NCBI GenBank assembly: GCA_019359315.1
Contig: JAHHHO010000042.1
Coordinates: forward strand, 1-49,868
Source: Myxacorys californica WJT36-NPBG1
GTDB taxonomy: Bacteria; Cyanobacteriota; Cyanobacteriia; Leptolyngbyales; Leptolyngbyaceae
Reading direction: 5' to 3'
DNA length: 49,868 bases
This document shows, piece by piece, positions 5,366 to 29,429 of this stretch. Position numbers and translations under genes: made by a program. The stretch's first letter is position 1, and each line of letters starts with the position of its first letter. Below the pieces are notes generated by a model that was not told the DNA's origin, searched no databases, and saw nothing but the letters and a program-made list of their open reading frames with translations.

Positions 5366-6004
5366 TCAATCGCGCCGTTGTTTAAACCACTGCTTAATTA
5401 GGTCATTGGAGCGAATTCTCCAATCGACGATCGACAGCAGCAGCAGTGGCACTCCGCCTACTTTTAAGCCCATCAGCACATGTAACACAAGAGCAATCAC
5501 AATCGTTGCCCAAGCCAGCAGATGCAGTGAGTAGATGGGATGAAGTAAATCACCACTCAATAGCCAGTCTGCCTGCGTTCGGTTTCCGGTCGCGGTTCCT
5601 GCGGAGTTGCGCTTTGCGCTAATCGCAACGAGTGGCGCTAGGAGAAGCACAGTGTTTACCAGTCGGTGCAGGGTGTACCACCAAATCGGCTTCCCAACTT
5701 TGGTTAACTTCTCTAGAGAATTTCGTTGAATGAGGCGTTTGTTCCCGAAGGCTAGGCCGTAAAGCGCAAACGCTAGAACGATCGCAAATAAACCCCATCC
5801 AAGATTCGCGTGAATGCTAATAATCGTGTCAATCCTGGATAAAGGAAGTTTTCCAAAGCGGTAATCAAATGTGTTGTAGATTAGAAAACCCGATGCGATT
5901 AGCGCAAAGCGCAACTCCGCAGGAACCGCGGCAAAAACCAGCACTCCATTCGCGCTATGAAGAATTCGCAAAAATACTGGCTGATAGGGCTTAATGAGAG
6001 GCAT
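5366..6004 (-). CDS. b-type cytochrome (cytochrome b561 / hydrogenase-b-subunit-like) membrane protein, 212 aa
   Basis: Four hydrophobic segments (about residues 15-43, 62-86, 112-128 and 155-190) and histidines H16, H65, H113, H155, H161 and H175 fit the four-helix di-haem cytochrome b561/Ni-Fe-hydrogenase b-subunit/formate-dehydrogenase gamma fold. It would pass electrons across a membrane; the partner is unknown because no redox gene adjoins it. The oddity is that residues 25-37 (AVPAELRFALIA) and 127-138 (AISAKRNSAGTA) are encoded by two identical 36-bp repeat copies in opposite orientation. The second forms a hydrophilic loop and the first lies in a membrane segment. Start is the ATG at 6004. 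Haem ligands are inferred, not shown. Confidence 0.7.
   Translation of the reverse strand: MPLIKPYQPVFLRILHSANGVLVFAAVPAELRFALIASGFLIYNTFDYRFGKLPLSRIDTIISIHANLGWGLFAIVLAFALYGLAFGNKRLIQRNSLEKLTKVGKPIWWYTLHRLVNTVLLLAPLVAISAKRNSAGTATGNRTQADWLLSGDLLHPIYSLHLLAWATIVIALVLHVLMGLKVGGVPLLLLSIVDWRIRSNDLIKQWFKQRRD
5591..5626 (-). repeat. 36-bp dispersed element, copy A (inside cytochrome b-like gene)
   Basis: Read on the minus strand it begins GCGATTAGCGC, has GCGCAACTCC in the middle and ends GGAACCGCG. It is the exact reverse complement of copy B (36 of 36 bases). In the host gene frame it encodes AISAKRNSAGTA (residues 127-138), a polar loop between membrane segments. Confidence 0.9.
5895..5930 (+). 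repeat. 36-bp dispersed element, copy B (inside the same gene, opposite orientation)
   Basis: Plus-strand GCGATTAGCGC at the left end and GGAACCGCG at the right end, identical to the reverse complement of copy A. Because the host gene is on the minus strand, the element is read backwards and encodes AVPAELRFALIA (residues 26-37), part of the first hydrophobic segment. Copies A and B are 268 bp apart. Confidence 0.9.
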
Positions 6005-24955: not shown

Positions 24956-24991
24956 GCCATTAGCGCAGAGCGCAACTCCAACGGAAACGCG
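24956..24991 (+). repeat. 36-bp dispersed element, copy C (between nrtB and nrtC)
   Basis: Plus-strand sequence begins GCCATTAGCGCAG and contains GCGCAACTCC and GGAAACGCG. It matches the other copies except for a few substitutions. It begins 3 bp downstream of the nrtB stop codon (24995-24997) and ends about 40 bp before the nrtC start, so here it is non-coding but within the operon mRNA. Confidence 0.85.
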
Positions 24992-27464: not shown

Positions 27465-29429
27465 TGCATCTAATCGAACTTGACCAACAGGGCGAGCAAT
27501 ACAGGTGAGGATCTGACCCGTCTCGCGATCGTGGTCATTCAATGCATCGGGATCGCCGTCATAACTGACTTCACCCGAAAGCAATTTTGTTTTGCAGGTT
27601 CCGCACGAACCAGACCGACAACTGCTGTCGATTGCCACTCCCGCTTGCTCTGCAATTTCTAAAATTAAGTTGTCCTGTGTACAGGCGATGCTCTGATTGG
27701 ACTGCGCGAAGTTCACCATTGCGGGAGCCGCGTTTCCTTTGGAGTTGCGCTCTGCGCTAATCGCTGCTAGAGGAGGTGAGGTGATTGCTGCTATGGGAGG
27801 AGCAGATTCACGGACGAGGGTTGCTGTCGCCGGACCAGAGCCATTCATTGATGCCGTTGCCTTAGTCGGAAGGTTCATCGCGGTTGGCATTTCGGCTCGG
27901 GGCTGTGCTCCAAATTCCTGAATTAAAATATCCCGTAGAATTGGCTTGAGATCCTCGCAGGCAATGCCTTTCTGAACACACGTGCCAAGGTGGGCATCTT
28001 TACCAACCTTGCCACCCCGATAGAGATCGACGCCCTCCACGGTCTTGCCATCTTTCCGAACTTTCGTGCCCATCAAGCCGATGTCGGCCACCTGAGGCTG
28101 ACCGCAAGAATTAGGGCAGCCCGTCCAGTGAATTCGGACCGGACGAGAACAATAGAGTTCGCGCTCGATTTCGTTGATTAGCGCCACGGCGCGATTTTTG
28201 GTTTCAATTAGCGCAAAGTTGCAGAACTGAGCGCCTGTGCAGGATACCAGTGCCCGCGCTAGGTTTTCCGGCTGAACCGGAAAGCGCGATCGCACCAGGG
28301 GTTCTCTCGACAATGCGGCAACGCGAGAATCGGGGACATTGGGAATAATCACATTCTGCTCAACCGTGAGGCGAATTTCGCCACTGCCATACACTTCTGC
28401 AATACGAGCGAGGTCAAACATGTCTTGTGCAAACAGCCGGCCCACCGGAACATGCAGCCCGACGTAGTTGAGACCCGGTTGCTTTTGAGCATGAATGCCA
28501 ATGTGATCGCGCTTATCCCACAAAAATTCATCTTTCGGAGCCGCCGTTTGCAGCATGCCGCCAAACTGTTGTTCGACCTCCCGGCGAAACTTCTCCATGC
28601 CCCACTCGTCAATCAGCCACATCAAGCGAGATTTCTGTCGGTTGGCGCGTAAGCCATGATTGCGGTAGACAATTAAGATGGCTTCGCTCAGCGCCACGAC
28701 ATCGCGGGCATCCACCCAAGCGTCAAGCGGGACCGCCGCCTCACACCGTTTTGCCGAGAAGAATCCTCCCACGACCACGTTGAAGCCTAGCGTTCTATTT
28801 TTATAGGCAGGAATAAAGGCAATGTCATTGATTTCAGCGTGAACCGAGTTGTCGCGGCAGCCAGCGATCGCAATGTTAAATTTGCGCGGCAGATTCGTAA
28901 AGCTCGGATTGCCACGACCGTTATTTGTGATCATGTCCTGCACTTTCCGCACTAGGCCCCGCGTGTCAATTAACTCATCGGCATCGATGCCTGCTACTGG
29001 AGAGCCAGTAATATTACGAACATTGTCCATGCCAGATTGAACGCTCGTGAGTCCCATCTGCTCAAACTTGCGGAAAATATCAGACAAATCCTCGATCCGA
29101 ATGCCGCGCAGTTGGATATTCTGACGAGTGGTAATATCTCCATACCCATTCTCACCGTAGCGTTGCAGCGTCTCTGCCAGAATGCGCATTTGTCCACTCG
29201 TGAGAATGCCATTGGGCATCCGCATTCGCAGCATAAATTTGCCAGGAGTCACCGGGCGAAAGAACACTCCCAACCACTTGAGGCGGTGGTCGCGATCGGT
29301 GCCATCCATCGCTTCCCAGCCAATGTGAGCAAAATGCTCCAGTTCAGCCTTTACCGCAAGACCGTCTTTTTCGGCTTTGATCTTCTCAAACTTATTGAGG
29401 GTCGCTGCGGCTGAAATCGTGTCTGTCAT
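27462..29429 (-). CDS. nirA: Ferredoxin-nitrite reductase with fused C-terminal [2Fe-2S] ferredoxin domain, 655 aa
   Basis: Reduces nitrite to ammonium with six electrons. Residues 1-510 are the sirohaem/[4Fe-4S] reductase; the cluster cysteines are in CTGAQFC (about 395-402) and HWTGCPNSCGQPQ (about 435-440). After a low-complexity Ala/Pro/Thr linker, residues 575-655 are a plant-type ferredoxin with CRSGSCGTC and a later LTC (about 600-640). Ordinary cyanobacterial NirA is about 510 aa and lacks this tail; the same fusion is known from Plectonema boryanum (from memory). Twelve linker residues (556-567, AISAERNSKGNA) are encoded exactly by repeat copy D. ATG 29429, AAGG upstream, and a canonical NtcA promoter. 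First gene of the operon. Confidence 0.96.
   Translation of the reverse strand: MTDTISAAATLNKFEKIKAEKDGLAVKAELEHFAHIGWEAMDGTDRDHRLKWLGVFFRPVTPGKFMLRMRMPNGILTSGQMRILAETLQRYGENGYGDITTRQNIQLRGIRIEDLSDIFRKFEQMGLTSVQSGMDNVRNITGSPVAGIDADELIDTRGLVRKVQDMITNNGRGNPSFTNLPRKFNIAIAGCRDNSVHAEINDIAFIPAYKNRTLGFNVVVGGFFSAKRCEAAVPLDAWVDARDVVALSEAILIVYRNHGLRANRQKSRLMWLIDEWGMEKFRREVEQQFGGMLQTAAPKDEFLWDKRDHIGIHAQKQPGLNYVGLHVPVGRLFAQDMFDLARIAEVYGSGEIRLTVEQNVIIPNVPDSRVAALSREPLVRSRFPVQPENLARALVSCTGAQFCNFALIETKNRAVALINEIERELYCSRPVRIHWTGCPNSCGQPQVADIGLMGTKVRKDGKTVEGVDLYRGGKVGKDAHLGTCVQKGIACEDLKPILRDILIQEFGAQPRAEMPTAMNLPTKATASMNGSGPATATLVRESAPPIAAITSPPLAAISAERNSKGNAAPAMVNFAQSNQSIACTQDNLILEIAEQAGVAIDSSCRSGSCGTCKTKLLSGEVSYDGDPDALNDHDRETGQILTCIARPVGQVRLDA
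27729..27764 (-). repeat. 36-bp dispersed element, copy D (in the NirA linker)
   Basis: Read on the minus strand it begins GCGATTAGCGCAG, contains GCGCAACTCC and ends GGAAACGCG. It coincides exactly with codons 556-567 of nirA, in phase, in the linker joining reductase and ferredoxin domains. Confidence 0.9.

Follow-up and report, generated by a model that had tools for sequence, protein, structure and literature searches.

Related Repeat Systems

SDR5 repeats are reportedly 21–27 nt long, adopt a hairpin structure supported by compensatory changes, and are said to be dispersed by mobility. According to a later account, they insert between nucleotides 3 and 4 of the octamer HIP1 (Elhai 2008, as cited in Elhai 2015, PMC4390886), the biological role of which is described there as little known. 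In the descriptions compared here, the palindromic elements of Rickettsia are about 150 bp long, form in-frame insertions in unrelated Rickettsia genes, and are presented with no mention of a HIP1-like target. REPs are described in PMC3733652 as extragenic and tagged with GTAG or CGTC. The palindromic amphipathic repeat coding sequence of Mollicutes and other microbes is placed in PMC2996958 among the intragenic tandem repeats of repeat proteins.

Here we describe a 27-nt repeat of the cyanobacterium Myxacorys californica WJT36-NPBG1, found in a 49,868-nucleotide stretch of DNA (contig JAHHHO010000042.1) that is referred to in full as the window. By the description of SDR5, the repeat looks like a member of that family. 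It likewise lies between bases 3 and 4 of HIP1, with an uninterrupted HIP1 in relatives; its net insertion of 27 bp fits the size reported for SDR5; and one of its two hairpins carries compensatory changes, the other being nearly invariant. It differs in its high copy number in Myxacorys; its in-frame load on genes and its frame bias are measured here.

The in-frame load on unrelated proteins (50 of 54 in-gene copies open) recalls the Rickettsia elements, a parallel that had been drawn in a first-pass annotation of this DNA. The parallel holds in effect, as the repeat works like those elements, in frame in many genes, but it does not extend to kinship: the lengths are about 150 bp versus 27 bp, and the hosts are unrelated. 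With the REP/REPIN elements associated with RAYT, the repeat shares the character of a short dispersed hairpin repeat, but about half of its copies are genic, it has one fixed target, and the window's genome yielded no intact Y1 gene. It is palindromic and protein-coding like the amphipathic repeat coding sequence, but consists of single insertions into HIP1. Both the family of repeats and its target HIP1 have already been published, so that this kind of mobile element is known; in-frame coding copies are not reported in the literature searched, outside of which Elhai 2008 falls. What is added is a view of the consequences: 54 in-gene copies among 101 in one genome, several of them with an intact HIP1 in relatives.

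An Inverted Pair in a Cytochrome b561-Like Gene

Two copies in the window (5591–5627 and 5894–5930) are exact reverse complements over 37 bp, or 43 bp at 95% identity in a longer alignment. Both are contained in a minus-strand open reading frame of 212 codons (5366–6004) that runs through them without a stop, reading copies A and B as AISAKRNSAGTA and AVPAELRFALIA, in agreement with the initial report of an exact inverted pair, in frame, in one membrane-protein gene. The features of the window are as follows.

5366–6004, minus strand: host gene, cytochrome b561-like membrane protein, 212 aa (PF01292, E 9.7e-9)
5592–5594, plus strand: GCG, left half of the HIP1 split by copy A
5595–5621, plus strand: copy A, 27-bp element, which the host gene reads in reverse and which adds ISAKRNSAG (placement by alignment)
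5622–5626, plus strand: ATCGC, right half of the HIP1 split by copy A
5895–5899, minus strand: ATCGC (on the minus strand), right half of the HIP1 split by copy B
5900–5926, minus strand: copy B, 27-bp element, read forward by the host and adding VPAELRFAL
5927–5929, minus strand: GCG (on the minus strand), left half of the HIP1 split by copy B
24961–24987, minus strand: fourth copy, diverged, two mismatches to the family pattern, outside the scored reading frames
27733–27759, plus strand: third copy, exact HIP1 flanks, in frame, in the linker before a 2Fe-2S domain

Deletion of 27 bp at each site of the host gene restores GCGATCGC, the HIP1 octamer, which is read as A-I-A. The net insertion is thus 27 bp, or nine residues, per copy, and the insertion point lies between bases 3 and 4 of HIP1 (GCG^ATCGC). 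The 37-bp pair accordingly comprises the 27-bp element, the pre-existing HIP1 halves and one matching base per side. A fixed 36-bp unit, as the first-pass annotation had proposed, was rejected in favor of 27 bp; the inserted unit is real, and what remains of the 36 bp is accounted for by the HIP1 halves and one base that matches by chance.

The protein was matched in 31 of 58 genomes, including that of the window. In a MAFFT alignment that covered 29 of the 30 other matching genomes (those that came with the locus), the nine residues are absent at both sites in all 29 cytochrome b561 orthologues, so that a missing block was found where one had been predicted, although nine residues long and not 12. 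Copy B falls within the first hydrophobic segment of the protein, which agrees with its assignment to a membrane helix as regards position; the residues that it introduces there, however, include Pro, Glu and Arg.

The identity of the copies over 37 bp and their location in the same gene could also arise from a local inverted duplication in place of two family insertions, and past the 37 bp one side still matches at four of six bases. This origin is highly improbable, as exact identity stops one base beyond the HIP1 halves, removing either copy gives back a HIP1 of its own together with its own ancestral peptide, found in orthologues, and about 110 other copies exist in the genome. Nor does the similarity run on into gene-specific sequence at both ends, as a local duplication would have it. 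Insertion of two family members is therefore the reading adopted for the pair.

The third copy is hosted by a gene (27465–29429, minus strand) in which nitrite/sulphite reductase is fused to a 2Fe-2S ferredoxin domain at its C terminus; the linker that contains the element in the window is variable among relatives. The rejoined octamer of the fourth copy is one mismatch off HIP1.

Empty and Shared Sites in Relatives

The uninterrupted octamer was also found at other sites. In the same-genus genome of Myxacorys almedinensis (G001), the orthologues of a glutamate synthase and of a solute-binding protein read GCGATCGC at the exact insertion point, the two insertions having opposite orientations relative to their genes. 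Among the 12 genomes searched for the solute-binding-protein site (L039), GCGATCG is present in all eight that align across the junction, with the full GCGATCGC in five; four (L182, L185, L186, L187) do not align at the junction, and L188 and L189 repeat places already counted and were excluded. At the glutamate synthase site (L091), also with 12 genomes, L161 does not align, seven of the 11 aligned genomes have exact GCGATCGC, and in four the sequence is not HIP1. The site of the copy in L097 is GCGATCGC in G001, and the site of the copy in L056 shows an exact 27-nt gap in genome G061, where it reads GCGATCGT. In three of the five genes in which an empty site was sought, the nitrite reductase (linker), a glycosyltransferase (in which the gap varies in length) and an acetyl-CoA synthetase (end), the comparison is weak or ambiguous, because these regions are variable or terminal.

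Not every insertion is recent, since the copy at L115:2005–2031 is matched by a diverged one at the corresponding position of M. almedinensis (L140, near 1673–1909).

A copy in a large kinase-AAA gene (L060:2004–2030) occupies the same site in L233 and L234 (genome G103) and in L243 and L244 (genome G133). Its flanks share 87–90% DNA identity with these genomes, which belong to another family; either the insertion is old and has long been kept, or the gene was transferred between families with the element.

The Repeat Family and its Target

A 27-nt family pattern with up to three mismatches matched 112 copies genome-wide, whereas the reversed control pattern gave no match in the same genome, which excludes chance and bears out the expectation that the repeat would recur elsewhere. 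Of these, 101 distinct copies were analyzed further, one of them known from another search alone. When the flanks are rejoined, they form HIP1 exactly in 35 of the 101 and within one mismatch in 67; the octamer has 0, 1, 2, 3, 4 and 5 mismatches in 35, 32, 18, 8, 7 and 1 copies, respectively. The 34 copies with at least two mismatches are read as probably decayed. Conservation of the flanking bases extends for 3 bp on the left of the element and 5 bp on the right, where it stops sharply. MITEs are marked by terminal inverted repeats together with a target site duplication. There is in general no target duplication across the 101 copies; the A at element position 1 that a 2-bp AT duplication would need is found in 15 of them.

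The element can fold into two adjacent hairpins. At pair 4–10 of hairpin 1 the 101 copies have 80 C-G, 10 T-A, 1 G-C, 7 T-G, 2 C-A and 1 G-G, and two-sided changes are therefore present. The ten T-A changes may reflect common ancestry, and some probably belong to one subfamily. Hairpin 2 is nearly invariant and for this reason says little. In a BLAST comparison of 300-bp flanks, the surroundings were similar or overlapped for nine pairs of copies; with just nine such pairs, most copies lie at separate sites.

Several copies have particular surroundings. Two copies 51 bp apart (L077:5251–5328) are part of a local duplication, with one HIP1 half lacking a base, and L077:2004–2030 is a third copy related to this pair. 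The copies at L062:2027–2053 and L078:1999–2025 have about 75 bp of common flank at 93% identity and both lack the right HIP1 half, which suggests that the element was carried within a larger repeat. Eight copies (L082, L084, L089, L090, L092, L100, L105, L109) form a subfamily with a hairpin 1 resembling TTTCT..GAAG, changed on both sides; exact HIP1 is seen in one of the eight, and the subfamily is perhaps an older wave. A single sub-threshold Rfam match (16.4 bits against a cut-off of 65) lies outside the element and was taken as chance, and no match to the element was found in phage records.

Reading Frame, Orientation and Selection

The codon score used to call host reading frames was trained on these loci themselves, and 54 of the 101 copies lie within such frames. 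All but four of these are open, the four carrying a stop. The open insertions affect 49 host proteins, of which 40 have a Pfam match at E 0.001, a few of the matches being below Pfam's own cut-off. The fixed-length insertion at the fixed HIP1 point occurs in both orientations relative to genes, with a pronounced bias. In the HIP1 frame GCG-ATC-GC, 35 copies are inserted in reverse and encode the hydrophilic peptide AISAERNSEGTA, exactly or in a closely similar form, versus seven forward, all open (p 1.5e-5). The second frame has six forward copies, which are open, and two reverse copies, both with stops. In the third frame there are four reverse copies, two of them with stops, and no forward copies, the canonical forward reading of which contains a stop. 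Orientation thus follows the encoded frame and not the direction of transcription.

The genic share of the copies (53%) is well below that of the unoccupied HIP1 sites of the same loci, edges and occupied sites left out, where 358 of 431 (83%) are genic (p 1.8e-9). The frame mix of the copies differs mildly from that of free HIP1 (p 0.011).

The first-pass annotation had interpreted the openness of the element in both orientations as selection for coding-neutral insertion, that is, a sequence whose many open frames evolved to let it live in genes. The length of 27, a multiple of three, the four open frames out of six in the two commoner of three forms tested (three in the third form) and the large proportion of open in-gene copies would agree with such an element. 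Dinucleotide shuffling of the element, however, gives at least four open frames in 85% of cases (5000 shuffles), and such openness is therefore ordinary for its composition. Moreover, a pattern with free loop lengths, searched with gene context ignored, gave 22 matches that do not differ in length, and genes hold a smaller share of the copies than of free HIP1 sites. We thus regard selection for a coding-neutral element as quite unlikely. The genic depletion and the frame-linked orientation instead indicate that purifying selection filters the insertions.

A simple model explains the data: the element inserts precisely into HIP1, and purifying selection acts afterwards. Each copy is very probably a mobile two-hairpin repeat of the SDR5 kind that was inserted at GCG^ATCGC and subsequently filtered in this way. 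The 27-nt repeat enters the octamer at one exact point, after its third base, and leaves no obvious target duplication; it would move in trans as a single strand, of RNA or DNA, at an opened HIP1. Since 27 is divisible by three and genic HIP1 sites are mostly in the frame GCG-ATC-GC, the insertion adds nine residues and, in whichever orientation, does not close the gene. Purifying selection would then retain mainly the orientation and frame that read as hydrophilic AISAERNSEGTA, and selection on the host proteins alone would suffice to explain the bias in both.

With this bias, insertion and selection can be told apart, and the copies amount to a naturally occurring collection of nine-residue insertions into ordinary enzymes. 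They could also be used to test which machinery moves a 27-nt element and what makes HIP1 its choice. The balance is even for a broader reading, in which HIP1 sites serve as genome-wide landing pads and cyanobacterial proteins are naturally linker-scanned by in-frame, mostly hydrophilic nine-residue peptides, in core enzymes such as glutamate synthase and with some kept across families. If it is true, the repeat would be among the shortest known mobile elements that invade proteins, with host selection recorded in its orientation and frame.

Candidate Machinery

IS200/IS605 elements have hairpins and insert at specific targets without target duplication. The two hairpins, the strict target and the lack of general duplication would correspondingly suit an element of REP/RAYT type, mobilized by a single-strand transposase of the Y1 (HUH) class, and cyanobacterial TnpA-REP genes with REP insertions are described in PMC6006769. 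Such an origin is unlikely, since the consensus ends lack the REP tags GTAG and CGTC, and the sole Y1 transposase gene (PF01797) found in the window's genome (C103:16325–16680; L285, L295) is broken despite the 112 copies, although it may have been lost after the spread. The Y1 transposase is intact in G001.

RNA-mediated copying, by reverse splicing of an element transcript or by priming at a nicked HIP1, is possible but doubtful. The authors of the SDR work are said to have proposed an RNA intermediate. One strand of the element with its HIP1 halves folds better than the other (−11.2 versus −6.8 kcal/mol), into one long hairpin and not two, and the window's genome has one long reverse transcriptase of PF00078. 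On the other hand, no PF00078 match was found in G001, which has 59 copies, and wobble pairs, which might have betrayed an RNA form, are evenly split between the strands (20, made up of 15 T-G and 5 G-T, versus 20, made up of 18 C-A and 2 A-C). Neither the Y1 transposase nor the reverse transcriptase was found intact in both Myxacorys genomes, and both were set aside as the obvious driver.

Occurrence in Other Genomes

With mismatches allowed, copies were found in 34 of 194 genomes, with 112 in that of the window, 59 in G001 and 21 in the next. In five other genomes, the stretches around the listed copies contain 71 copies, which are not all independent, as some are kin (the LETLA and VSVEA groups). 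Forty-two of these are in genes and all 42 are open, in agreement with the window's genome; they fall into frames of 22, 13, 4 and 3 copies, the 22 being the equivalent of the AISAERNSEGTA frame. The exact octamer is present in 24 of the 71, and in none of the 11 copies of G008. A scan of 84,980 genomes, which may omit records of the window's own genome, found the exact core with ATCGC in 20 stretches, all cyanobacterial and 13 of them in M. almedinensis. Similar sequence also occurs on plasmids of Nostoc, Leptolyngbya, Calothrix, Aulosira, Kovacikia and Gloeocapsa (14 records, five of them from Nostoc).
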